From: Caldisericia bacterium
GTDB lineage: Bacteria > Caldisericota > Caldisericia > JAAYUI01
Length of the DNA stretch: 64,000 nucleotides
Assembly (NCBI GenBank): GCA_017992475.1
Contig: JAGOOO010000007.1
Location: 1 to 64,000 of the forward strand
Reading direction: 5' to 3'
The position numbers were made by a program, and so were the translations under genes. Positions 13,410 through 55,134 of this stretch are shown here, piece after piece (the stretch's first letter is position 1; the number at the start of each line of letters is the position of its first letter). The notes beneath the pieces are model-generated. The model was not told where the DNA came from. It saw only the letters and a list, made by a program, of their open reading frames with translations, and ran no database searches.

Positions 13410-16400
13410 TTGATAATGAAAAGAACGTGGGCGATAACACTAACCATAGCGATAATCGCATCATTGACCCCCTTTACTCCAGTAGTGCATGCACAGACTT
13501 CGCTGGATTCCTCCTCCCCCCAAATAATAGGCGGACCAATGCCAGCAAGACTTTTCCTTGGGCCAACATTCCTTCATGCGGATGGCTCAAGGTTGTACGT
13601 TGTTGAGGAACTTGCTGTAAGGGTCCAGTCATTATTCCCACAAAATGACTATCTGTTGGGAACTTTTGGTTTCAAAACTGGCCAAATGTTCAAGCCGGGT
13701 GGAATCACAACTTACCAGGGAATATCCTATATCACCGATACAGCGCAAAGCAAAATCCTTGTTTATGGAAAAATGGGTGAGTATCAAGGTGAATTTAAAG
13801 TAAAAGACCAGGCCCAAAAACCTGTCCTTGTGAATCCAATAGGTATCTCTTCTTACCAGGGAAGGCTTTATATTGCTAACTCCGGCGACGGAAACATAGC
13901 AGTCTGTGACACAAACGGCAAGTTTATACAGAGGATATCAAAAAAGGGTACCGGTGAAGGAGAACTCCTCTATCCAACAGGTATTTGTGTTGCATCCGGC
14001 AAAATATTCGTGACTGATCCTGAAGCAGGGAAAATAGAGGTTTTTGATCAGGATGGAAACCATTCTATAACAATTCCTTCCCCCAGACCATGGGCAGTTT
14101 TTCCGACTGAGGGTAAAGTTTTCATAACAGACATATCAACTAATAAAGTAATAATGGTGGGTATTGATGGCACACAAGTTGGCGAGATCCAGGCCAATGG
14201 TTTCATCAAAACACCAAAGGGTGTCGCCTTTATGGATGGCAAAATATATATCTCTTCATATGAAACAAACAAAATCGAAATCTTCGAAGTTGATGGAAAA
14301 CATTCTGGAACATTTGGTCATCCTGTTGAACAGGCCGCAGGAACCCTTGGAAGACCAACAGGATTGGCCATTGGAAATGACAAGCTCTATGTTGCCGATT
14401 CAACCAGAAACAAAATTATAGCTTATTCCAAAGATGGGAAATTGTCCGAGGAATCAAAAGATGATATAGCTGATTCGAAGATGGCCTCGCCAAGCGGCGT
14501 AGCTGTTGATATATCAGGAAACTATTATGTTGCTGACACTGCAAACAACACAATAAAAATGTTCGAAAAAGATGGGACCTTCAAGAAGGCTTTTGGTGGT
14601 TTCGGTTCCGGAAATGGAAAGTTAAACACACCATCAGATATTATAATAATCAACCCGCAAAACAAACTTTTTGTCACAGACACAGGAAACAATCTTGTCC
14701 AGGTCTTTTCTCTCTCAGGTGACTTCCTCTACCAGTTTGGCGGCTTTGGATCAGCCCCAGGGCAGTTCAACAATCCGATTGGCATTTGCACCAATGGCAC
14801 TAATATATTTGTTGCAGACTCAGCCAATTGTAGAATCCAGGAACTTTCAAGCGATGGAAAGCCAATAAGAACTTTCGGTCACAGGGGTAGAGGCAAAGAC
14901 ATGCTCCTTTTCCCAATGGACTGTTCAATTGACAATTCTGGAAAGATATATGTTGCTGACACATACAACCACAGATTGACCGTCTTTGACCCAGAAACAA
15001 ACTTCTCCTGGAATTTTGGTAAAAATGGCGGGCCAGGTGATGTTCCCTATGTCGCAGAAGCTACATGCGATGAACCACCACCAGATAAAATCGTATACGG
15101 AAAATTTAATTTTCCATCAGGAATAGTTGCCAATGATCAAGGTTGCTTTGTATCAGATACTTATAATCATAGAGTGCAATTCGTTGACTTCATCGACATC
15201 TTTGGCGATTCCAACTACCTCATTTCACCATCTTATGTTGATTTTGGCTTTATCTCTCCTGGTTCGATAGCCGAAAAGAGTGTATACCTTAAAAATATTT
15301 CCGGCGGGCCACTCACCGGGGTAGTCATAATACCAAAAGAAGCACAATGGCTTAAAACACACAATCCGACATTCAAAAGCGACGAAGAACCGATTGTCTT
15401 CTATGTTGATTCAAATGGTGTCCCTGCAGGTTCTTATGAAACAGATGTAACGATCGCCACAAACAAAGACGGGCAAAACCAACCAAAAACAATCCACTTC
15501 AAGATCCAGATAGGTGATTCTTATGGTTTCCTCATTGATACAAATGCTTTCATCACAAAAGAATCTAACTCCAGAATTGATATAGTCATAAATCTTGTAG
15601 CACAAAATGGCTATACTGGTACAGCAGCACTCGACGTAAAAGGGACCCCAAGAGGTACATATATTCAATTTTCTGAGCCACTGCTCACACTTTCGAAATC
15701 AACATCAACTGTAATGTCAATAAGGGCAACTACAATTATCGCACCAGGAATATACAACATAACGATTATTGGCCAGAGCCCAAAAATAAAATATGAAACA
15801 AGGCTTGACATCACTCTGATTGTCTCAAGAAACCAGTCATTCGAGCCAAGAACTTCAATTGGAGAGACTTTCACTGCTGTCTGGTGCATCAACTGTCCAT
15901 ACGCCCACAGGGCTGGAGAAATGCTTGTCAACGAGTTCGGAGACAAGAGAGTTGTTTGGCTCATGTATTATGTCGACTCAAAAGAAGATGATGCCCACCT
16001 ATATTATTCACCTGCAGACAAGAGGTATAAATGGTACCCCGGACAAGGACTCCCAACCACTTTTATAGATGGCGTAAACTCCATCATTGGAGGAGACACT
16101 CCGGAAGAAAGACAAAAGCCCCCAAAAGACAAAAAGAAATGCGACAAATTCTCCGGGACAACATTTACCTATTTGAGATATAAAACTGAAGTTGAGAGAA
16201 GACAGAGCATGTCTTCTCAACTATCAATATTCACCGAAACAGAAGTTCTTGATGATACCGTTGAACTCGGAATTGAAATCGAGACGCTTCAGGCATTTGA
16301 AAACCAGAAAAATATTGCCCTGTATGTCATTCTCGCCGAAAACAATATTCCCTTTGAAGCTACAAATGGTGATTCATACCACAACATGGTAGTCAGGGAG

Positions 16401-18635
16401 ATGTACACTGGCCCCCTTGGAGAACCAATAACACTTGTTGAGGGTCAACCAATATACAAGAGGATGACCCTAAAGCTTCCGCAGTGGGTCAACAAGGATA
16501 ACGCCAACATAGTAGTCTGGATCCAGAACAACAACTCAAAAGAGATCTACCAGGGTTCGAACATCAACCTTTACGAACAGCCTGTTGTTAATCAATATAC
16601 AGTAAGGACACAAACAGAAAACATAAAACTTGAAGTCGACAAGGAAGCCGAGTTCAAATATTACGTGACCAATACAAGCACACATTCCTTCCCAATCCAT
16701 TGTTCCCCAGTCATCAAAGCAGCTGGATGGGATTATATAATCCAGGTTGATGGTAAAGAGCAGAAGGCCGAGAATTTTGATATCCCCCTAAGGCCAATGC
16801 AAAGTGCAATTGTATCAATAAAAGCCCTGCCACCTGAAGATGCCCAACCAGGAATAACCGCTTCTTTTGACATCAAAACAAGTTCAAGCCCGATTGACGC
16901 CAGGAGCAACATTACAAGCATAGAGACAATCCCGAGATTGCCACCAGACTTCACTTTCACGTCACCAGTACCAAGGGTCGAGCTGACATCAGGATCAAAG
17001 ACAGAGTTTGACATAAGCATCAACCCAATCAACGATTTTGACGGACCAGTAAGCATAAGCAACTGCACCGATAACGCATCCATAAAGGTAACAATAACAC
17101 CAAACACAGGCATCCCGCCCTTCAAAGCCCATGTGATAGCTGAAGGTGGTTCTGCACTCCAGATTTCAGAAGCCAAGATGTGCATAGTGGCAACAGGCAA
17201 CCCTACAAATGGGCAGGAAATGCAGCACAAGATTGAAATACCAGTGGAAGTGCTCTATGCAAGGCTCTTGCTGGAAGCCAATCCAAAAAAGATCATCAGC
17301 TGTTCGGAAAACCAGTCCTGCCATAGCTCAAGGGTTGACATCAACATCAGCACACCCATAGGCATCAAGGAAGCCAGGTTCTCTGTAAGGTACGATGCTT
17401 CAGTGCTTACAGTGAGCCACACCAGCCTTGGCGACTTCTTCCCCAGCAAGGACACAACGTATGATTTCATCGACAGATCAAGCGAGGGGATCGCAACAGT
17501 ACAGATAAAATCAACAGAATTCAGGAAAGGTGAAAACAAGCTTTTCTCAGTGGTTCTCAGAGGTGTGAAGGGCCAGACAAAACTCGGAACACAAGTCGAA
17601 GTCTGCGATGTAACAATGTATGGTGAAAAGGGTGATAAAGTCCTTACAAATGTTGGTTGCTCAACAGCAACCATGGATATCATATCCCAGATTGCACCGC
17701 CAACCCTCACCGCTGATGTCAAAGATGATATAATAGTCGACCAGGAAATATATGTAATAAAGGGCATAGCCAAAAGCAGCGATCCGCAATATCCAATCAC
17801 CCTTACGATCAATGGTAGACTTGTTTCTGTAAAACCTGATGGCTCCTATGAATACGAGGCAAGGCTCAGGGAAGGCAAAAACAATTTTGTCATAATCGCA
17901 ACTGATGAATCAGGTGGCTCGACAGGAATAAGAAAAACAATAATAAGGGACAGCACACCTCCAGAAATCAACCTTATCGGAATTGAAGACGGCATGACAG
18001 TAAACGATCCAGCTCTTGAAATAAAAGGTTGGGTTGATGAGGTAGCATCAATCACTCTAAATGGTGAACCACTTCAGGTAAACGAATACAGGGAATTCCA
18101 GAAAACAGTAACACTGAAGGACGGCCCAAACAAAATAACAATCAAGGCAACGGACCTTACAGGCAAAACGACAACACTCACAGTCACTGTCATTTTGAAG
18201 AAGAGGACCATCATCCAGCTCTGGCTCGGAAAAACACAGATGTTCGTAAATGGAAGTGCAGTAACTTTATTGACCGCCCCAACCTCATCGTCACCACCAC
18301 TTCCAAAAGATCTTGCCGGATCAACGTTCATGCCCATCTCGGAGGTCGCAAAGGCCCTCGGCGTAGAAGTACAGTGGGATGGCAAGGAAAAACGTGTAAC
18401 ACTGATTCAAAAACTCGAAACTGGAACAAAAAAGATAGAGCTATGGATTGGCAAGAAAACAGCAAAGATAGATGGCAAAGAAGTATTCATAGACTCAAAA
18501 ACGAAGAAGCTTTACCCAACAATAGTGGGTGGAAAAACACTGCTTCCACTCAGGTTTGTTGGTGATGCTCTTGGGGCCGACGTCCAGTACGAGGCTGCCG
18601 AGAAGAAAATAACCCTCACCTATCCGAAACTATGA
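13410..18635 (+). CDS. Giant exported NHL-propeller, thioredoxin-like, cohesin-like and Ig-domain protein
   Basis: A 1741-residue secreted protein. After a signal peptide (to about residue 28) come NHL beta-propeller repeats (about 50-605, recurring GKIYVADTYNHR-type blades) and an Ig-like region. A thioredoxin-fold insert has W825 and a C826-x-x-C829 pair plus a cis-proline LPTTF. Further beta domains follow, then a cohesin-like domain (about 1287-1427), two Ig-like repeats (about 1440-1600) and a C-terminal pair of copper-amine-oxidase-N-like repeats (about 1605-1741). TTG at 13410 is preferred because GGGGAG lies 6 nt before it; ATG at 13416 is the alternative. Function is unknown; a surface scaffold or sensor is inferred. 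It is divergent from the SLH protein gene. Confidence 0.85.
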   Translation: MIMKRTWAITLTIAIIASLTPFTPVVHAQTSLDSSSPQIIGGPMPARLFLGPTFLHADGSRLYVVEELAVRVQSLFPQNDYLLGTFGFKTGQMFKPGGITTYQGISYITDTAQSKILVYGKMGEYQGEFKVKDQAQKPVLVNPIGISSYQGRLYIANSGDGNIAVCDTNGKFIQRISKKGTGEGELLYPTGICVASGKIFVTDPEAGKIEVFDQDGNHSITIPSPRPWAVFPTEGKVFITDISTNKVIMVGIDGTQVGEIQANGFIKTPKGVAFMDGKIYISSYETNKIEIFEVDGKHSGTFGHPVEQAAGTLGRPTGLAIGNDKLYVADSTRNKIIAYSKDGKLSEESKDDIADSKMASPSGVAVDISGNYYVADTANNTIKMFEKDGTFKKAFGGFGSGNGKLNTPSDIIIINPQNKLFVTDTGNNLVQVFSLSGDFLYQFGGFGSAPGQFNNPIGICTNGTNIFVADSANCRIQELSSDGKPIRTFGHRGRGKDMLLFPMDCSIDNSGKIYVADTYNHRLTVFDPETNFSWNFGKNGGPGDVPYVAEATCDEPPPDKIVYGKFNFPSGIVANDQGCFVSDTYNHRVQFVDFIDIFGDSNYLISPSYVDFGFISPGSIAEKSVYLKNISGGPLTGVVIIPKEAQWLKTHNPTFKSDEEPIVFYVDSNGVPAGSYETDVTIATNKDGQNQPKTIHFKIQIGDSYGFLIDTNAFITKESNSRIDIVINLVAQNGYTGTAALDVKGTPRGTYIQFSEPLLTLSKSTSTVMSIRATTIIAPGIYNITIIGQSPKIKYETRLDITLIVSRNQSFEPRTSIGETFTAVWCINCPYAHRAGEMLVNEFGDKRVVWLMYYVDSKEDDAHLYYSPADKRYKWYPGQGLPTTFIDGVNSIIGGDTPEERQKPPKDKKKCDKFSGTTFTYLRYKTEVERRQSMSSQLSIFTETEVLDDTVELGIEIETLQAFENQKNIALYVILAENNIPFEATNGDSYHNMVVREMYTGPLGEPITLVEGQPIYKRMTLKLPQWVNKDNANIVVWIQNNNSKEIYQGSNINLYEQPVVNQYTVRTQTENIKLEVDKEAEFKYYVTNTSTHSFPIHCSPVIKAAGWDYIIQVDGKEQKAENFDIPLRPMQSAIVSIKALPPEDAQPGITASFDIKTSSSPIDARSNITSIETIPRLPPDFTFTSPVPRVELTSGSKTEFDISINPINDFDGPVSISNCTDNASIKVTITPNTGIPPFKAHVIAEGGSALQISEAKMCIVATGNPTNGQEMQHKIEIPVEVLYARLLLEANPKKIISCSENQSCHSSRVDINISTPIGIKEARFSVRYDASVLTVSHTSLGDFFPSKDTTYDFIDRSSEGIATVQIKSTEFRKGENKLFSVVLRGVKGQTKLGTQVEVCDVTMYGEKGDKVLTNVGCSTATMDIISQIAPPTLTADVKDDIIVDQEIYVIKGIAKSSDPQYPITLTINGRLVSVKPDGSYEYEARLREGKNNFVIIATDESGGSTGIRKTIIRDSTPPEINLIGIEDGMTVNDPALEIKGWVDEVASITLNGEPLQVNEYREFQKTVTLKDGPNKITIKATDLTGKTTTLTVTVILKKRTIIQLWLGKTQMFVNGSAVTLLTAPTSSSPPLPKDLAGSTFMPISEVAKALGVEVQWDGKEKRVTLIQKLETGTKKIELWIGKKTAKIDGKEVFIDSKTKKLYPTIVGGKTLLPLRFVGDALGADVQYEAAEKKITLTYPKL

Positions 18636-19249
18636 CAGAAAACCATCCTGTCACTGCAACCAAAAAGAAGGAAGCAATAGAAACAAGAAAGGCCCTTTTA
18701 TGGGGCCTTTCTTGTTTTCTGGCAGGCTGCTCTGTGGGCATTATCGCCGGGATAATGCTTCCACAAATGGACACCGTGCGCCATGAAGACAATCTGGAGC
18801 TGGCAAAATCCGCATCGGCCAAAATTGGTTGGCCAGTAATGGAAAGAGTTATAGCAGTAACAGATGCACAGTTGCAAATCGGCTCTATGGCTGATGCTCA
18901 AAACAAGATCGAATCATCCCTCACACAAAGATTTGAGTTCCTGGAAAAAACAAAACAGGCTACCCAAGTTTCATCCATACCAGCACCCAAAAAAAGTGGC
19001 ATGGTTTCGATTCAGGCAAAACCAACCAGCAACACTAAGTACAGGGATGGGTCAGGCCCAGATGACATAAACACCGCCACTTTTGACAAACTCGACAAAG
19101 TCCCATACCTTAAAGCAGAAACTGCAAACGAGATAATAAAATTCATCAAAACAAAGGGTAGGATTTCAAACTTCGACCAGTTGGGGGAGGTAAAGGGTGT
19201 TGGTCCAAAAACAATCGAAAAACTCAGGCAATATTTCCATATAAAATGA
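18632..19249 (+). CDS. comEA: ComEA-like helix-hairpin-helix DNA-binding protein
   Basis: A membrane-anchored DNA receptor of the natural-transformation machinery (205 residues). It has one N-terminal transmembrane segment (about 23-44), a variable linker, and the C-terminal double helix-hairpin-helix ComEA domain (about 143-203: DINTATFDKLDKVPYLKAE, then LGEVKGVGPKTIEKL). The ATG at 18632 overlaps the stop of the giant surface-protein gene (ATGA), and the stop overlaps comEC (ATGA). The membrane segment is encoded by DNA that also forms a perfect 15-bp inverted repeat at 18681-18717. The linker is longer than in minimal ComEA proteins. The context with comEC makes the call firm. Confidence 0.9.
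   Translation: MTENHPVTATKKKEAIETRKALLWGLSCFLAGCSVGIIAGIMLPQMDTVRHEDNLELAKSASAKIGWPVMERVIAVTDAQLQIGSMADAQNKIESSLTQRFEFLEKTKQATQVSSIPAPKKSGMVSIQAKPTSNTKYRDGSGPDDINTATFDKLDKVPYLKAETANEIIKFIKTKGRISNFDQLGEVKGVGPKTIEKLRQYFHIK
18681..18717 (+). terminator. Intrinsic-terminator-like hairpin inside comEA
   Basis: A perfect 15-bp stem (AAACAAGAAAGGCCC and its complement) closes a 7-nt loop and is followed by TTTTCT on the plus strand. It begins 46 nt after the end of the giant surface-protein gene and lies wholly within codons 17-29 of comEA. It could end the upstream transcript unless ribosomes translate comEA. This is read directly from the sequence; its activity is inferred. Confidence 0.7.
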
Positions 19250-21573
19250 CGCCTATTGTAATCTGTTCGGTTGTATTTGTGGCCGGAACAATACTCGGGC
19301 TTTCATTCCAATCCCCATGGTATATCCTTATCTCAATTGCCGCAGCAGCACTGTCTTTTATCATTGCACCAGCTGGTAAAAAGATATATAAGCTCACAAT
19401 TGGCTTTCTTGCGGCCGGTTTTTTGCTAGCAAGTCTCGGACAAACAACACAAAAACAGGATGAAACGAATTTCCCAAAACAGGCAAATTTCTTGGGGGTT
19501 GCCATTTCCATTGATGAATCCACAGACAAAAGGCTGGTCGTCAATGCGAGGATCAAGGAATCTGAAAGTGACATATTGATTGGGAACATAGTAAGGATTT
19601 ATTCTCCGCCTGTAGAAAATCTGGAAGCAGGAGACATCGTAAGAGGTAGCGGCAACGTGGCAAACCCGGCCCATGCAACAAACCCCGGCCAGTTTGATTT
19701 CTCAAACTATCTTTTAAGAAAAGATGTTTTTTGCGTCATTTTCACAGAAACTCCCCTGAAAATTGAAGGGAAGGGAAGTTTGTCACTAGACAGTATCGGC
19801 GCAAAAATCAGGGCAAATGCGTTTGAGACATTCTCCGAAGCTCTGCCAAAAAGATATGCTACGACAATGGACAGTATGGTCTTTGGAAAATCCGACATGC
19901 CAAAAGAAATACTGGACATATTCCAGAGGACGGGTACATCACACATCCTGGCCGCATCAGGATTCAACCTTACCATACTCGTTTTTGCCTCAATCTGGCT
20001 GCTACTCTGGATAACTGGTTCAAGAAAAACAGCCATAGTGGCTTCAATTGCTGTAGCCATACTCTACGCCGCAAGTGCCGGCTTCACACCATCAATATCA
20101 AGGGCGCTAGTCATGTCCGTTCTTTCGTTGTCTGCGGTATTGCTGGGCAGGAAATACACTGCCGGTTCAGGACTGGCGTTTGCCGTAATACTGCTATTGG
20201 CAATAGATCCAAAAACAATCTATGATCCAGGATTCCAGCTTTCTTTTGTTGCATGCCTTGGGTTCTTTGTGATGACAAGCTCCTTTGAAAACATAATCCC
20301 GAAGAAAAGATGGTACTCCGGTATCGCCATAATGGCCATCCAGACTATTTTCGTTCAGATGGCGACACTGCCAGTACTGGCATACCACTTCCACACATTC
20401 TCGACAGTTTCGGTCGCTTCAAACATGGTGGCCATAACAAGCTCGGAAATAATAATGCCACTTGGCGCACTCTCCGGTTTCCTGGGAATGATTTTCAGGC
20501 CCCTTGGTGTTCTGCTGTGCTACCTTGCATGGCCCATTCTGGCCCTCCAAAACATGGTTCTTGGTTTCCTTGCCTCTCCGGAATGGGCCACAATCTCCAT
20601 TGGCTCCTATCATGTTCTCGTCTGGCTTGCATATTACACCTCATTTGCTGGCCTCTGTTTTTTCATCTGCCGGCCAAAACCTTTTATTCATGATATAAGG
20701 GTAAAAAAAGCTTTTTTAACAACAATGACTATCTCTATTGTTCTCTTTGGCGGATCACTGGTTGGATATGCAAAAGATGGCCAGGCTCAGGTTACTTTTC
20801 TGGATGTCGGACATGGAGACAGCTGTCTAATACGAACATCCTCCGGAAAGACAATACTTGTCGATGGAGGCGGACTTGGAGGTAACTCTTCCTATGATAT
20901 CGGAGAGAGGGTCGTGGTCCCATTTTTGAGGTATCTGGGAATCAACAGGATTGACTATGTTGTTGCATCACACAACGATATTGACCATCTGGGCGGGCTT
21001 GTTCCTGTAATGGAACAGTTCAGGGTAGACAATATTATCGGATCAAAAGTGCCTTCCGGAACATACAAGGAACAAGATTTCTGGGACCTGGCAAATTCAA
21101 AAGGGGCACAAAAAATCTTTCCTTTCCCCGGGCAAAAACTAGACATTGATCCAAAAACATCGGTCATTTTTCTAGGCCCTCCAGCTGAAAAACTTGGCAA
21201 AGACTCAAAACAGATAAACAATGCAAGCGTCGTATTCAAAATAAACATCGATGGAGTAGAATTTCTTTTTTCTGGTGACTTGCAGGAAGAAGGAATGGCA
21301 TTCGAGATGAAAAACAGCCAGTGGCTTGATGCCGATATCATCAAACTGCCGCACCACGGAGGAAAAAACACCAACCTCAAATCGTGGCTTGATGCCGTTT
21401 CACCAAAGCTGGCCATCAACTCCAATTCGGCAAACCAGGGGAATGGCGCTCACAAAGAAACGGCAAAGGTGCTCGATGAAATGAAAATCCCCGTTCTCTC
21501 GACTGCAGAGAACGGGGCCATAACACTCACCGTGGAAAACGGGAAATACTCTATTCTTGCTTTTAAGAAGTGA
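19246..21573 (+). CDS. comEC: ComEC/Rec2 competence DNA-uptake channel
   Basis: An integral membrane protein (775 residues) that carries single-stranded DNA into the cytoplasm during transformation. Order: N-terminal membrane helices with an OB-like DUF4131 domain (about 40-190), then the ComEC membrane domain with the signature GTSHILAASGFNLTILV (about 230-246), then a C-terminal metallo-beta-lactamase-like domain (about 515-775). The last shows FLDVGHGDSCLIRT, SHNDIDHLGGL and LPHHGGKN, so the putative nuclease motifs look intact. It overlaps comEA by 4 nt. The 3' end overlaps the convergent VOC gene by 11 nt and holds a strong hairpin that probably terminates the opposite operon. Confidence 0.95.
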   Translation: MTPIVICSVVFVAGTILGLSFQSPWYILISIAAAALSFIIAPAGKKIYKLTIGFLAAGFLLASLGQTTQKQDETNFPKQANFLGVAISIDESTDKRLVVNARIKESESDILIGNIVRIYSPPVENLEAGDIVRGSGNVANPAHATNPGQFDFSNYLLRKDVFCVIFTETPLKIEGKGSLSLDSIGAKIRANAFETFSEALPKRYATTMDSMVFGKSDMPKEILDIFQRTGTSHILAASGFNLTILVFASIWLLLWITGSRKTAIVASIAVAILYAASAGFTPSISRALVMSVLSLSAVLLGRKYTAGSGLAFAVILLLAIDPKTIYDPGFQLSFVACLGFFVMTSSFENIIPKKRWYSGIAIMAIQTIFVQMATLPVLAYHFHTFSTVSVASNMVAITSSEIIMPLGALSGFLGMIFRPLGVLLCYLAWPILALQNMVLGFLASPEWATISIGSYHVLVWLAYYTSFAGLCFFICRPKPFIHDIRVKKAFLTTMTISIVLFGGSLVGYAKDGQAQVTFLDVGHGDSCLIRTSSGKTILVDGGGLGGNSSYDIGERVVVPFLRYLGINRIDYVVASHNDIDHLGGLVPVMEQFRVDNIIGSKVPSGTYKEQDFWDLANSKGAQKIFPFPGQKLDIDPKTSVIFLGPPAEKLGKDSKQINNASVVFKINIDGVEFLFSGDLQEEGMAFEMKNSQWLDADIIKLPHHGGKNTNLKSWLDAVSPKLAINSNSANQGNGAHKETAKVLDEMKIPVLSTAENGAITLTVENGKYSILAFKK
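21489..21517 (-). terminator. Hairpin terminator of the dnaX-VOC operon inside the comEC 3' end
   Basis: A perfect 11-bp GC-rich stem (CCCCGTTCTCT and its complement) with a 7-nt loop. On the minus strand it is followed by ATTTTCATTTC. It lies 46 nt past the VOC gene stop, inside comEC coding sequence. The T-tract is imperfect, so confidence is moderate. Confidence 0.5.
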
Positions 21574-43349: not shown

Positions 43350-44565
43350 TCACAAACCCCTTTTGGTCACAAATGCCCTTTCCTACAAGTGAAATGGCAT
43401 AGTCTTCCGGTATGTTTTGCTTTATGTAGTTATTGAAACTCTTTATTCCCAAGGAGTCTATTCTGTTTAGCGTTTCTTCAAGTGACGGCACCTGCCCAAG
43501 AAGTAGCCCGAATTTTCCGCTGCGGTCCATCCTTGCCATGTTGCTTTCGAGGGACAGGGTTGTCGAACCCTTTATCATCCTCTTTGCCCTCTCGAGCTCC
43601 TCTTCAGTTACACCATGGTTGCGAAGGTTGTTCAGCTCATAAAGCAGAATATCACGGCTCTTTTGGTAATTTTCCTTTGGAACAGCACCATAAACACCCA
43701 GGAGCCCGGCAGATTTCGAGAAAGAAGACATCATGGAAATATTGTAAACCAGACCCTCTTTTTCCCTAAGTCTCTGGAAGAGTCTGGAGCTTATTGAACC
43801 GGCAATAATAACGGAGCTAACAAGCGCCTCGGCCATTTCTGCATCACAAAGCGTTGGCCCTGGCCACACATAGGTGAAATAGACCTGTTCGGAGTCCCTG
43901 TCCATGCAGAGTTTGTTTGGTTTGAATTCTGGCCGGTCTTCAATATATGAGGTTTTCCCATTGAGTGGCTCGTGTGGAATGCCAATCTTTTCGAGTTTGG
44001 CCGACAGCTGTTCGTAGGTTATCCCGCCACAGGCAGACAAAACAGTATTTTCAGGCCTGTAATGGTCTTTGTGGTATTTCCTGACATTGTTCGGAGAGAC
44101 TTCCTTTATTACTTCCGGAAAACCAAGGACCGATCTTGCAAGCGGGTGTGTTCCCCAAGCCGCCTGAAACGCCCTGACAGAAGCAATCTCATCAGGGGCG
44201 TCCATAAATTCAGCTATCTCAGAGAGAACAACCCCTCTCTCCAGATTGATTGAATCATCCTGAAGTGAAGGGTTGTAGGTAACATCAAACAAGAGGTCCA
44301 GCGCGAGGTCAACATCATCCACAAGAACCTTGGCATAAAAGCTTGTCAATTCAACCGAGGTATAGGCATTCAGTTCTCCACCTGTACCATCGATTTCAAT
44401 TGCTATATCACCGGCACTCCTTTTTGGCGTCCCTTTGAAAACAAGGTGCTCAAGGAAGTGCGAAAGGCCCTGCTGGTCCTCTGACTCAGTATAGGCACCT
44501 ACCGGCATGAACAAACCGAGTGCTACCGAGCCAAAACCCGGCATGGTGTCTACTACTAGCTTCAC
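43342..44565 (-). CDS. M16-family zinc peptidase
   Basis: A processing-peptidase-like (pitrilysin family) protein of 407 residues. The inverted zinc motif HFLEH lies at about 36-40 and the third ligand Glu about 75 residues on (LERGVVLSEI). The second half carries the inactive-domain signature SRLFQRLREKEGLVYNI. The start is GTG, overlapping the pnp stop (GTGA). The pnp-M16 peptidase order matches Bacillus pnpA-mlpA and many relatives. The cellular substrate is not known. Length is typical of the bacterial single-chain form, which usually acts as a dimer. Confidence 0.93.
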   Translation of the reverse strand: MKLVVDTMPGFGSVALGLFMPVGAYTESEDQQGLSHFLEHLVFKGTPKRSAGDIAIEIDGTGGELNAYTSVELTSFYAKVLVDDVDLALDLLFDVTYNPSLQDDSINLERGVVLSEIAEFMDAPDEIASVRAFQAAWGTHPLARSVLGFPEVIKEVSPNNVRKYHKDHYRPENTVLSACGGITYEQLSAKLEKIGIPHEPLNGKTSYIEDRPEFKPNKLCMDRDSEQVYFTYVWPGPTLCDAEMAEALVSSVIIAGSISSRLFQRLREKEGLVYNISMMSSFSKSAGLLGVYGAVPKENYQKSRDILLYELNNLRNHGVTEEELERAKRMIKGSTTLSLESNMARMDRSGKFGLLLGQVPSLEETLNRIDSLGIKSFNNYIKQNIPEDYAISLVGKGICDQKGFVSD

Positions 44566-46772
44566 TTTCTCCTGTCCTTGCCATGCCTCTTGCCATGGTG
44601 ATCGTCTTCACGACCATGATCTTCATCACCGTCAATGGCTGGTGGGATTGTTCCTGAATCAGTTTCCAGGAGGCCCTTGCGAGTGAGGGAGATCCTGCCA
44701 GTTTCATCAATCTTTTTGACTTTAACCATGACTTCCTGGCCGATCTTGAGTTCGTCTTCGACCTTTGCGACCCTGTAATTGGCTATTTCAGAGATGTGGA
44801 GGAGACCTTCCTTGCCACCTTTGCCGATATCGACAAAAGCTCCAAAGTCCCTTATTCCGGTTACTCTGCCAAGATAAATCTTTCCGACAGTGACATCTTC
44901 GGTTATCTCGGAGATGATTCCCTTTGCCTTCATTCCAGCTTCTTCATTTGGGGCAGTTATAAAGACCCTTCCATCCTGTTCGATGTCAATCTTGCAGCCT
45001 GTGTCTTCAATGATTTTCTTTATGACTTTGCCACCCGGTCCGATTACCTCACGGATCTTCTCTGTGTCTATGGCCATTGTGTAGACCCTTGGAGCATTTG
45101 GTGAAAGCTCTGATCTTGGCCCTGGAAGGCATTGCCCCATGAGACCAAGAATGAACATCCTCGCTTCCCTGGCCTGTGCCAGAGCGCGCCTGATAATATT
45201 CATGTCGATACCCTTGATCTTGATGTCCATCTGGAGGCCAGTTATGCCTTCAGTTGTTCCGGCAACCTTGAAATCCATGTCGCCAAGGGCATCCTCAACA
45301 CCCTGAATATCGGTGAGGATTGCAATCTTATCATTGCTTGTGATAAGTCCCATCGCTATTCCGGCAACAGGTGCCTTTAACGGCACACCCGCATCCATAA
45401 GCGAAAGGGAACTACAGCAAACAGAAGCCATTGATGAAGAACCATTGCTTTCCAAGACTTCAGAGAAAACTTGAATGGTATAAGGGAATTCTTCTTCGGT
45501 GGGAACAAGCGGCACCAGCGATCTTTCTGCAAGATTGCCATGTCCGATATCTCTTCTTGATGGGCCTCTCAATGGCCTTACTTCACCAACCGAGAATGGG
45601 GGGAAGTTGTAGTAATGCATATAATGCTTGATCTCTTCCTCATACAGTCCTTCAACCAGCTGGCCCTCGTCTTTGGCGCCAAGAGTTGTTACGGATAAAA
45701 CCTGGGTTTGGCCCCTGAGGAAAATCGCTGACCCATGAGTCATTGGAAGTGTGCCAACCTCCATGGAGATTGGCCTGATCTCATTGGTTTTTCTGCCATC
45801 AGGGCGTTTGCCCTGGATGACTATTCTGTCCCTGACAAAAGATTTTAGCTCTTTTTCGAATATAAGGCCAAAATTTGACGTTTTTTCCGGGAGCTTTTCC
45901 TGTACCAGGGCCTTTATCTCGTTCTCAAATTCGCCAGATGCACTTTCACGCTGTGCCTTGTCCGGATTGAAAAGTTTTTCATCACCTTTGCTGAAAAGCT
46001 CATCATGGACGAGTTGTAAAACTTCTGGATCGATCTCTGGCGGAGGAACAACAATCTTCGGCTTCCCAATTTCTTTTTGAAGCTCCATTTGCAGGGCAAT
46101 AATGTCGGCAAAGGAGGCCTGTGCAAGCTCCATGGCTTTTGCGACTGTCTCTTCGTCCACCTGGATTGCGCCACCCTCAACCATCATTATTGCATCGTTT
46201 GTTCCAGCAACCACCAGATCAAGCGTTGATTTCTGGAGCATAGTGACGGTTGGATTTACAACAAGCTCTCCGTCGATAAGCCCAATCCTTACTGCTGCGA
46301 GTGGCCCTTCAAACGGGGCATCAGAAATGGTGAGAGCGCAAGAAGCACCAATTATTCCAAGAAAATCCGGGATGTTCTCCCCATCTGACGAAAGTGTGGA
46401 AACAACAATCTGGACATCTCTGCGGAAATGCTTTGGGAACAACGGCCTGAGGGGTCTATCAATAAGTCTTGACCTCAATATTTCCTGGTCAGACGGCCTT
46501 CCACCCCTCTTGAAAAACCCGCCTGGGATCTTTCCTGCCGCATACATTTTGTCGAAATAATCGACAACCAGCGGGAAGAAATCTATGTCAGGTCTTTCTT
46601 TATCAGCCACAACGGCAGTTGCAAGAACAACCGTTCCGCCGAGTTGCACCATAACAGAACCACCGGCCTGCTGAGCAACTTTGCCGGTGGTGACTGTTAT
46701 TTCCTGCCCCGCTATTTCAGCATGGGCAATATAAACGTCTCTATTTAGCTCTGTCTTTTTGTCTATTTTCAT
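44562..46772 (-). CDS. pnp: Polynucleotide phosphorylase
   Basis: A 3'-5' phosphorolytic exoribonuclease, core of RNA decay (736 residues). It has two RNase PH domains (about 15-235 and 315-545) around an all-alpha linker. The second contains the conserved FPYTIQVFSEVLESNGSSSM and GIAMGLI. A KH domain with GPGGKVIKKI (about 565-620) and an S1 domain (about 630-700) follow. It ends in a short His/Asp/Lys-rich tail. Its start overlaps the rpsO stop (TAATG), and rpsO-pnp is a near-universal pairing. RNase J follows three genes later on the same transcript. Confidence 0.97.
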   Translation of the reverse strand: MKIDKKTELNRDVYIAHAEIAGQEITVTTGKVAQQAGGSVMVQLGGTVVLATAVVADKERPDIDFFPLVVDYFDKMYAAGKIPGGFFKRGGRPSDQEILRSRLIDRPLRPLFPKHFRRDVQIVVSTLSSDGENIPDFLGIIGASCALTISDAPFEGPLAAVRIGLIDGELVVNPTVTMLQKSTLDLVVAGTNDAIMMVEGGAIQVDEETVAKAMELAQASFADIIALQMELQKEIGKPKIVVPPPEIDPEVLQLVHDELFSKGDEKLFNPDKAQRESASGEFENEIKALVQEKLPEKTSNFGLIFEKELKSFVRDRIVIQGKRPDGRKTNEIRPISMEVGTLPMTHGSAIFLRGQTQVLSVTTLGAKDEGQLVEGLYEEEIKHYMHYYNFPPFSVGEVRPLRGPSRRDIGHGNLAERSLVPLVPTEEEFPYTIQVFSEVLESNGSSSMASVCCSSLSLMDAGVPLKAPVAGIAMGLITSNDKIAILTDIQGVEDALGDMDFKVAGTTEGITGLQMDIKIKGIDMNIIRRALAQAREARMFILGLMGQCLPGPRSELSPNAPRVYTMAIDTEKIREVIGPGGKVIKKIIEDTGCKIDIEQDGRVFITAPNEEAGMKAKGIISEITEDVTVGKIYLGRVTGIRDFGAFVDIGKGGKEGLLHISEIANYRVAKVEDELKIGQEVMVKVKKIDETGRISLTRKGLLETDSGTIPPAIDGDEDHGREDDHHGKRHGKDRRK

Positions 46773-53097: not shown

Positions 53098-55134
53098 CTA
53101 GATTGCTATCTCGACAAAATCCGAGACCTCTCTATATTTTTGAAGCAAACCTGAAAGAAAGTTCTTTCTGTTTGCTTTTATCTTCTCATCTTCAGCATTG
53201 ACCATAACTGTATCAAAGTATTTTTCTGCAGGATCAGTGAGATTGCAAAGCAGTCTCAATTTTTCTGCAAAATCATTGCTAGAGGCGACAGATTTGAACA
53301 CGTTTTTACAGGAAACTTCAAATTCCCTCTCGACATCATCTTCGAAAAGTGCTGTGTCATAGTTTCCAGTTGGAGCATAATCCCTGAGGATATTGTTGAG
53401 TCTTTTTGCAGTAGCAACTATGCCGGCAAATTCTTTTGACTCATATATTGCCTGCATTGCATCGGCCCTGCCCATGACTTCTTTCAATTGTTCAATCCCT
53501 GGAGAAATCGCCGCCCTGACAACATCATAACGGTATCCCTTCGACCTCAGGTAATTCTCAAGTCTTGCCTTTATGAAATCAACAGATTTCTGGACAGCAT
53601 CGTCACTCCGCTTGAATCCAAGCTTGCTGCATGAAACAAGCAGATCGGTCAAATTCACAGAGAGCGATCCTTCCACAAGGACTCTTATTATTCCGATGGC
53701 AAAACGCCTCACTCCAAACGGATCTGCTGAACCCTTCGGCATATTGCCAGAAGCAGCAATATTTACAAGTGAATCGGCCTTGTCGACAAGCGAAAGGGCC
53801 TGCCCAAGAGCAGATGATGGTACGGGATCGTCCTCGCCTGCTGGCAGGTAATGTTCGGATATCGCCAGAGCCACTTCCCCGTCTTCCCCGTCAAGTTCGG
53901 CATACAATCCACCAATCCTGCCCTGGAGGTCATCATGCTCATGGACCATTGAAGAGGCAAGATCGGCCTTGGCAAGCGAGGATGCTTTTTCCAGCTTGTT
54001 TTTATCAACACCAAGCTGGACCATTTTTGAGAGTTCAACAAGCCTCTCTGTTTTGTCACGAAGCGTGCCAAGACCTTTAAGGAAAGCGACTCCAGACAAT
54101 TTGCCTGCAAAATCGACCAGCTTTTTCTTTCTGTCTTCAGCAAAGAAGAACCTCGCATCAGATAGTCTTCCCAGGAGAACTTTCAACTCACCCTCAAGGA
54201 CAGTCTGTGCTATCTGCGCAGGTCCATTGATTACAAATGCAAAATTGTTTGTTAGTTTGCCGTCTTTTGTAAATGGGATAAACCTGAGGTCTCCCATAAG
54301 AACGGTTTTGATGACCAGCTCTGGTGCTGACTCAAGATAATCAAATGGGAATTCCCCCTGCCACACAAGAGGTCTTTCAACAATGCTGGCAAGCTCATCA
54401 AGAAGATCCTTGTTCTTCAATGCTTCCATTCCCAATGAAGAGGCAAGTTTTTGTGCTTTCTCAAAAATATGTTCGGAGCGTTCTTCCAGATTGCCCACCA
54501 CACCCATGGAGGAAAGCACTTCAGGATATTTTGATGCAGTCGCTATCTCGACTTTTCTTGAACGTTCCGGCCTTGGCGACATGGTAAAATTTGATGATTT
54601 GGCATTGCCAATGGAGACATCAATCACAACGTCATCGGACATTGCAACAATCCACCGGATCGGTCTTACCCAGGAAATACCTGTTTCATCCCAGCGCATC
54701 GAATGCGGGTGTGGGAATGACAGCACCACTTTGGAAAGCGAAGATGAGACAACTTCTTCGATGGTTTTTCCCGGAACAATTTTTTTGGCAGTCGCATAAA
54801 CACCGCCACTGATCTCACCAAAAACCACATCCTTAGGTTCAATCCCGACTTTTACAGCAAACCCTTGAAGGGCCTTTGTAGGATTTCCATCTTTGTCAAA
54901 GCAGGCCGATTTCGGTGGCCCCTTCTCTTCAACGGTTTTAGATGGGCCAGACTCCTGCACACTGTCAAAAAGGAGCGCAAGTCTTCTTGGGGTGGCAAAT
55001 GTCTTTGGGCTGGAAAAGGAAAGCTCGGCTTCCTTCAAAGCCCCACACATTCCCTCCATAAGATAAATAATGGCTGGTTTTACCAGCCTGGAGGGTAATT
55101 CTTCGCAACCGATCTCGATTAGGAGGCTACGCAT
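53098..55134 (-). CDS. glyS: Glycyl-tRNA synthetase, beta subunit
   Basis: The large subunit (678 residues) of the alpha2-beta2 glycyl-tRNA synthetase, which binds tRNA and supports catalysis. The N-terminus is LLIEIGCEELPSRLVKPA, the conserved hallmark; GRLSDARFFFAEDRKK and a C-terminal anticodon-binding (DALR-like) domain follow, ending VMVNAEDEKIKANR. The start overlaps glyQ by 8 nt. It is followed at 8 nt by korD, with no terminator seen. Confidence 0.96.
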   Translation of the reverse strand: MRSLLIEIGCEELPSRLVKPAIIYLMEGMCGALKEAELSFSSPKTFATPRRLALLFDSVQESGPSKTVEEKGPPKSACFDKDGNPTKALQGFAVKVGIEPKDVVFGEISGGVYATAKKIVPGKTIEEVVSSSLSKVVLSFPHPHSMRWDETGISWVRPIRWIVAMSDDVVIDVSIGNAKSSNFTMSPRPERSRKVEIATASKYPEVLSSMGVVGNLEERSEHIFEKAQKLASSLGMEALKNKDLLDELASIVERPLVWQGEFPFDYLESAPELVIKTVLMGDLRFIPFTKDGKLTNNFAFVINGPAQIAQTVLEGELKVLLGRLSDARFFFAEDRKKKLVDFAGKLSGVAFLKGLGTLRDKTERLVELSKMVQLGVDKNKLEKASSLAKADLASSMVHEHDDLQGRIGGLYAELDGEDGEVALAISEHYLPAGEDDPVPSSALGQALSLVDKADSLVNIAASGNMPKGSADPFGVRRFAIGIIRVLVEGSLSVNLTDLLVSCSKLGFKRSDDAVQKSVDFIKARLENYLRSKGYRYDVVRAAISPGIEQLKEVMGRADAMQAIYESKEFAGIVATAKRLNNILRDYAPTGNYDTALFEDDVEREFEVSCKNVFKSVASSNDFAEKLRLLCNLTDPAEKYFDTVMVNAEDEKIKANRKNFLSGLLQKYREVSDFVEIAI

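Follow-up and report, generated by a model that had tools for sequence, protein, structure and literature searches.

A hairpin within the first codons of comEA as a probable operon-internal boundary element in Caldisericia

Organization of the comEA locus

The window, which is the whole stretch of 64,000 nucleotides analysed here, originates from a Caldisericia MAG; JAAYUI010000003 and JAGOOK010000008 are among its congeners. A giant gene, comEA and comEC overlap one after another on the forward strand, and a hairpin is located in the 5′ part of comEA. The features are as follows.

13410–18635, + strand: giant upstream gene of 1741 codons for a predicted exported protein with NHL repeats, Omp28-like and glucodextranase-B domains and a C-terminal Cu_amine_oxidN1 domain (ORF, Pfam)
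18632–18635, + strand: ATGA overlap formed by the giant-gene stop and the comEA start, ATG at 18632 (sequence)
18632–19249, + strand: comEA, with an N-terminal membrane segment and a C-terminal helix-hairpin-helix domain (ORF, Pfam HHH_3)
18681–18695, + strand: 5′ arm of the hairpin, 15 nt, AAACAAGAAAGGCCC, its inner 12 nt invariant in four genomes
18696–18702, + strand: loop TTTTATG, 7 nt, with the sole synonymous change of the hairpin region among congeners
18703–18717, + strand: 3′ arm, 15 nt, GGGCCTTTCTTGTTT, invariant in four genomes
18708–18720, + strand: U-rich run after the GC core, a candidate terminator tail, TTTCTTGTTTTCT (sequence, d-score)
19246–21573, + strand: comEC, joined to the comEA stop by an ATGA overlap (ORF; Pfam Competence, DUF4131 and Lactamase_B)

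The identity of comEA, homologues of which are found in 37 of 61 genomes searched, is supported by an HHH_3 domain at the C-terminus of its product (Pfam 7e-15) and by the presence of comEC directly downstream. The coding overlap is also well supported, because the ATGA junction of the giant gene and comEA is common to three congeners and a second genus (G004), and because a start codon located 3′ of the hairpin would delete the N-terminal membrane segment. As a separate observation, the silent sites of the last 27 giant-gene codons (18555–18635) vary at only 2 of 27 positions among congeners, compared to 202 of 415 before them (p = 1e-5). Of this gene end, the genome holds diverged paralogues only.

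Structure of the hairpin and its codons

The first-pass annotation described a flawless hairpin at 18681–18717, within comEA codons 17–29, with a stem of 15 bp and a loop of 7 nt, and both the sequence and RNA folding confirm it. The arms are 100% complementary; the stem lies 49–86 nt into comEA, and 45 nt separate the hairpin from the giant-gene stop. The description needs correction in the tail alone: the first TTT of the TTTTCT claimed to follow the stem is the last three bases of the stem, and just TCT lies beyond the 15 bp. Read as a terminator, the element has the GC core GGCCC-TTTTATG-GGGCC and then TTTCTTGTTTTCT, a tail interrupted by Ser and Cys codons. A 71-nt fold reaches −32.1 kcal/mol (z −5.0), an energy that none of 200 shuffled sequences matched, and among the ten perfect hairpins in the window with a stem of at least 9 bp this one ranks second in stem length. 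Its terminator score (d-score, by our own implementation of the d'Aubenton-Carafa formula) is 23.2, whereas 150 coding windows drawn at random give −7.3 or less, and the hairpin resembles the genome's own terminators (AAAAGGCCC...GGGCCTTTT). The antisense strand is also terminator-scoring (d 14.5).

The hairpin is made by synonymous codon choice and is not forced by the ComEA protein. When codons were replaced with synonymous ones according to the genus codon usage, with the amino acids fixed, none of 300 recodings matched the observed energy (z −4.5), and when codons were permuted within the gene, none of 100 attained the terminator score of the hairpin.

Conservation in relatives

The inner stem persists in three congeners, despite silent change elsewhere in comEA: their comEA products share 85–88% amino acid identity, the inner 12 bp of the stem are unchanged, and the outermost three pairs vary (AAAC to ATTC). 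Across the four congeners, codons 19–31 vary at just one of their 12 silent positions, which lies in the loop, whereas the rest of comEA varies at 64 of 140 (Fisher p = 0.014); silent changes resume directly 3′ of the tail. Compensatory pair changes in the stem are absent among the four congeners, and family genomes are too few for a covariation test.

G004, the sole other genus of the family compared, encodes a ComEA with 33–34% amino acid identity, and its gene carries a perfect 9-bp stem, GGCCGCTGG-TTAA-CCAGCGGCC, at the equivalent position in a different sequence. This stem has a d-score of 25.1 with a weaker U-tract (TTATTGCAGG), and lies just ahead of the membrane segment after an ATGA junction downstream of a surface-protein gene. 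G004 may have acquired its hairpin independently. In other Caldisericia families the comEA start is without an unusual hairpin (z −2.1 to +1.6), and comEA is preceded there by a different gene, or by none nearby.

Several other identities of the element were considered and discarded. The hairpin region has no second copy in the genome, which rejects a dispersed repeat or uptake sequence; Rfam matches in the window are tRNAs only, which rejects a known Rfam element; and a search for viral relatives found none.

Hairpins at tight gene junctions

A census was made on about 1.1 Mb from four partial genomes (MAGs) of this Caldisericia family. Genes were called with a simple home-made codon-usage caller, which in two congeners set the start of comEA too far 3′, and a gene abutting or overlapping the preceding gene was defined as a tight junction (n = 278). 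Perfect stems of at least 11 bp are mostly outside genes (74 of 81), and five of the seven in-gene ones are located at most 120 nt past the stop of another gene. Hairpins with dG < −20 (45 nt) in the first 10–120 nt occur at 20 of 278 tight junctions versus 6 of 711 internal stretches (p = 2e-7), and at 3 of 320 other gene starts. Terminator scores above zero in the first 125 nt are found at 20/278 tight junctions versus 1/708 internal stretches (p = 1e-10) and 2/319 other gene starts, with 1.6 expected from recoding; several of these 20 matches are mutually orthologous, and independent cases are fewer than 20. G004 alone, which is free of this redundancy, has 6 terminator-scoring cases at 66 tight junctions versus 0 at 183 internal stretches. 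Silent sites pooled over seven stems of the class vary at 4 of 58 positions, compared to 146 of 563 outside (p = 0.0004).

Gene names in the class were read by eye from protein sequences, except for those under Pfam search. Besides the surface protein and comEA, the pairs include another Cu_amine_oxidN1 protein and an NTP transferase, atpC and an exported protein, secA and X, rplT and glmM (with a hairpin in both genera, the stems being different), ppdK and dnaG (with a hairpin in both genera), and rpsO and pnp (with a strong hairpin whose terminator score is just below zero). In many of these pairs a gene presumably in high demand is joined to an unrelated one. Some orthologous junctions are without a hairpin, such as pnp in G004 and alr in G001. 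The idea of a class confined to this family is weakened by tight junctions of other bacteria, which show a smaller excess (9/295 terminator-scoring versus 2/1313 internal); the difference between the family and these bacteria, 20/278 versus 9/295, is modest (p = 0.03).

Some individual cases were also observed. In pnp (44562–46772, − strand), codons 28–38 form a hairpin, ACCACCGGC...GCCGGTGGT, at 46659–46691 (−), directly after rpsO (gap −1), and it is identical in four congeners and absent from G004. The corresponding rpsO-pnp signals of E. coli are intergenic. Near the start of a glyS-like gene for glycyl-tRNA synthetase beta (53098–55134, −), which overlaps a glyQ-like gene by 8 nt, there is a stable hairpin at 55072–55095 (−); this case misfits the idea of high-low pairing, because the two partners would be needed equally. 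A 902-aa gene with an N-terminal membrane segment, found in another contig of the same genome (C41 43665-) and in G002 (C35 200897-) (L164, L132), carries ACGAAAAAACCCAGA...TCTGGGTTTTTTCGT at its start just ahead of the membrane segment; G004 has a different terminator-scoring stem at the same place, and G001 folds more weakly there. comEC holds a further case within its 3′ end, a perfect minus-strand hairpin of 11 bp with a U-rich tail (21489–21517), which is conserved in G001. It lies shortly past the stop of a convergent minus-strand gene (22009–21563), as a terminator inside the coding sequence of another gene. In other bacteria, 7 of 73 comEC starts carry a terminator-scoring hairpin versus 26 of 876 recodings (about 2 expected), with cases in unrelated bacteria (L061:584-, L108:3680-, L045:3704-, L043:3797-). 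These were rejected as a general competence signal, as they are partly driven by composition (hydrophobic N-termini).

Possible functions of the comEA hairpin

We consider the hairpin a probable operon-internal boundary element: a 3′-end hairpin that would keep the mRNA of the giant gene above that of comEA-comEC. Since the overlapping genes leave no intergenic space, the 3′-end hairpin of the upstream mRNA would be written in the first comEA codons. Most giant-gene transcripts probably end, or 3′ trimming stops, at about 18718–18722, through a partial intrinsic terminator, through a barrier to 3′–5′ exonucleases after cleavage in comEA-comEC, or through both, and the outcome would be smaller amounts of comEA-comEC than of the upstream gene. 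We infer from the sequence that 3′ ends are probably formed in this way, by either route, and that the dose of comEA-comEC is probably lowered.

The proposal of the first-pass annotation that the hairpin could end the surface-protein mRNA holds in that the element is terminator-like, suitably placed and retained in its inner stem, but is qualified by the score of the antisense strand. A pure intrinsic terminator with tuned read-through, where the polymerase stops at the U-rich run and a fraction enters comEA-comEC, is a serious possibility, though we would not call it probable. Its d-score of 20–25 at comEA in all five genomes, its AAAGGCCC/GGGCCTTT core, which is the one used in the genome's intergenic terminators, and the clostridial internal terminators that set operon stoichiometry (PMC9045158) all favor it, while the U-tract is interrupted, and weaker still in G004, and antisense scores are positive too. 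Class-wide, 20 sense and 15 antisense scores are nearly balanced; strand asymmetry thus failed as proof of termination, and the U-tail evidence does not single it out. In the family, intergenic hairpins are found at a median of 20 nt past the stop (90th percentile 41.5), compared to 45 for the comEA hairpin. Alternatively, the hairpin may be purely a 3′ exonuclease barrier: the full polycistronic mRNA would be cut within comEA-comEC, and the hairpin would shield the upstream mRNA from PNPase-type decay. The anatomy is that of the E. coli protective hairpins (PMC5927463), the PNPase gene is in the window and several class members have poor U-tails, but the E. coli hairpins have no counterpart to the U-rich tail of the comEA stem, and we regard this alternative as rather unlikely. 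Rho, encoded in four of the five genomes, is a possible further contributor through polarity.

A competence-specific attenuator controlled by translation, as had been suggested for the comEA stem, is not supported, with similar hairpins at the starts of glmM, pnp, dnaG, the NTP transferase gene and others. A competence-specific element was rejected as the main reading on account of this device at many non-competence junctions, and also because comEA of related families, with another or no gene just upstream, is without the hairpin. Still, the geometry would suit translation-dependent attenuation, in which a ribosome restarting at ATGA melts the stem and lets comEA-comEC be transcribed, and transcription otherwise stops: a ribosome on ATGA leaves 18681–18717 free, and some 10 codons further it reaches the stem. 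In a 261-nt fold, however, the hairpin is intact, the minimum-energy structure contains no competing antiterminator and no leader peptide is seen, the same device stands at non-competence genes, and tight coupling, which the reading requires, is a premise in this phylum. Attenuation of competence is therefore possible as far as geometry goes, with nothing specific pointing to it, and we hold it to be improbable. Least of all do we expect a by-product of coding, in which A-rich Lys/Arg codons and U-rich codons of the membrane segment pair by accident. The stem does span the junction of the basic flank and the hydrophobic segment of ComEA, and comEC starts of other bacteria show some terminator-like stems of partly compositional origin; but same-amino-acid recoding fails to recreate the stem (0/300; 0/100), which disfavors this reading, and silent sites of the stem codons are conserved. 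It is very unlikely.

If a boundary element is indeed located here, its embedding is apparently selected via synonymous codons. This would call for caution when the 5′ ends of genes of this kind are recoded or shortened, and would offer a route to operon stoichiometry signals in genomes without intergenic space. In a bolder extension, which we regard as unlikely, compact Caldisericia genomes would systematically place their operon-internal terminators at the start of the downstream coding sequence. Synonymous codons of comEA, glmM, dnaG and others would then form a second code for operon stoichiometry, and read-through would depend on the ability of a ribosome restarting at ATGA to keep pace with RNA polymerase.

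Comparison with known systems

Rho-independent terminators of the same genomes share with the comEA stem the AAAGGCCC/GGGCCTTT core and the A-/U-rich flanks, and the stable GC-rich stem-loop typical of an intrinsic terminator is present in comEA (15 bp, z −5.0). These terminators differ in that they are outside genes, at the median distance given above, and in their U-tract, which is cleaner, with 5.8 U of 8 on average.

In clostridia, internal terminators between genes for substrate-binding proteins and translocators tune stoichiometry (PMC9045158). They reduce expression of the second gene below that of the abundant product encoded ahead of it, as is predicted for comEA, but are intergenic, unlike the comEA stem within coding sequence and an ATGA overlap. 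Similarly, in the cip-cel operon of Clostridium cellulolyticum, stem-loops are reported to set relative gene levels by selective RNA processing and stabilization (PMC4423207), again a prediction for comEA; there the stem-loops are intergenic, come with processing sites and were demonstrated experimentally.

In E. coli (PMC7815308) and Borrelia (PMC10319736), 3′ ends commonly fall within coding sequences. The closest counterparts are the protective hairpins of E. coli (Dar and Sorek, 2018, PMC5927463): of 26 operon hairpins that stabilise the upstream gene, 17 are embedded in the coding sequence of the gene that follows, at 107 ± 56 nt from its start; they show wobble conservation and lack a U-tract. 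In both systems a stable stem occupies roughly the first 100 nt of that gene, and the upstream gene is favored, or for comEA would be; the position of the comEA stem, 49–86 nt, agrees with the published mean, and silent sites under the stem are conserved in comEA and in the pooled class. The two differ in the tail, U-rich in the window's genus and weaker in G004, in details of the ATGA setting, and in that the E. coli hairpins were shown by RNA decay data and the comEA stem is described here from sequence. The kind of element is thus already known and is not unique to this family; what is new here is the phylum, in that hairpins embedded in coding sequence at operon boundaries, experimentally established in E. 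coli, have a sequence-level sign in a distant and little-studied one as well.
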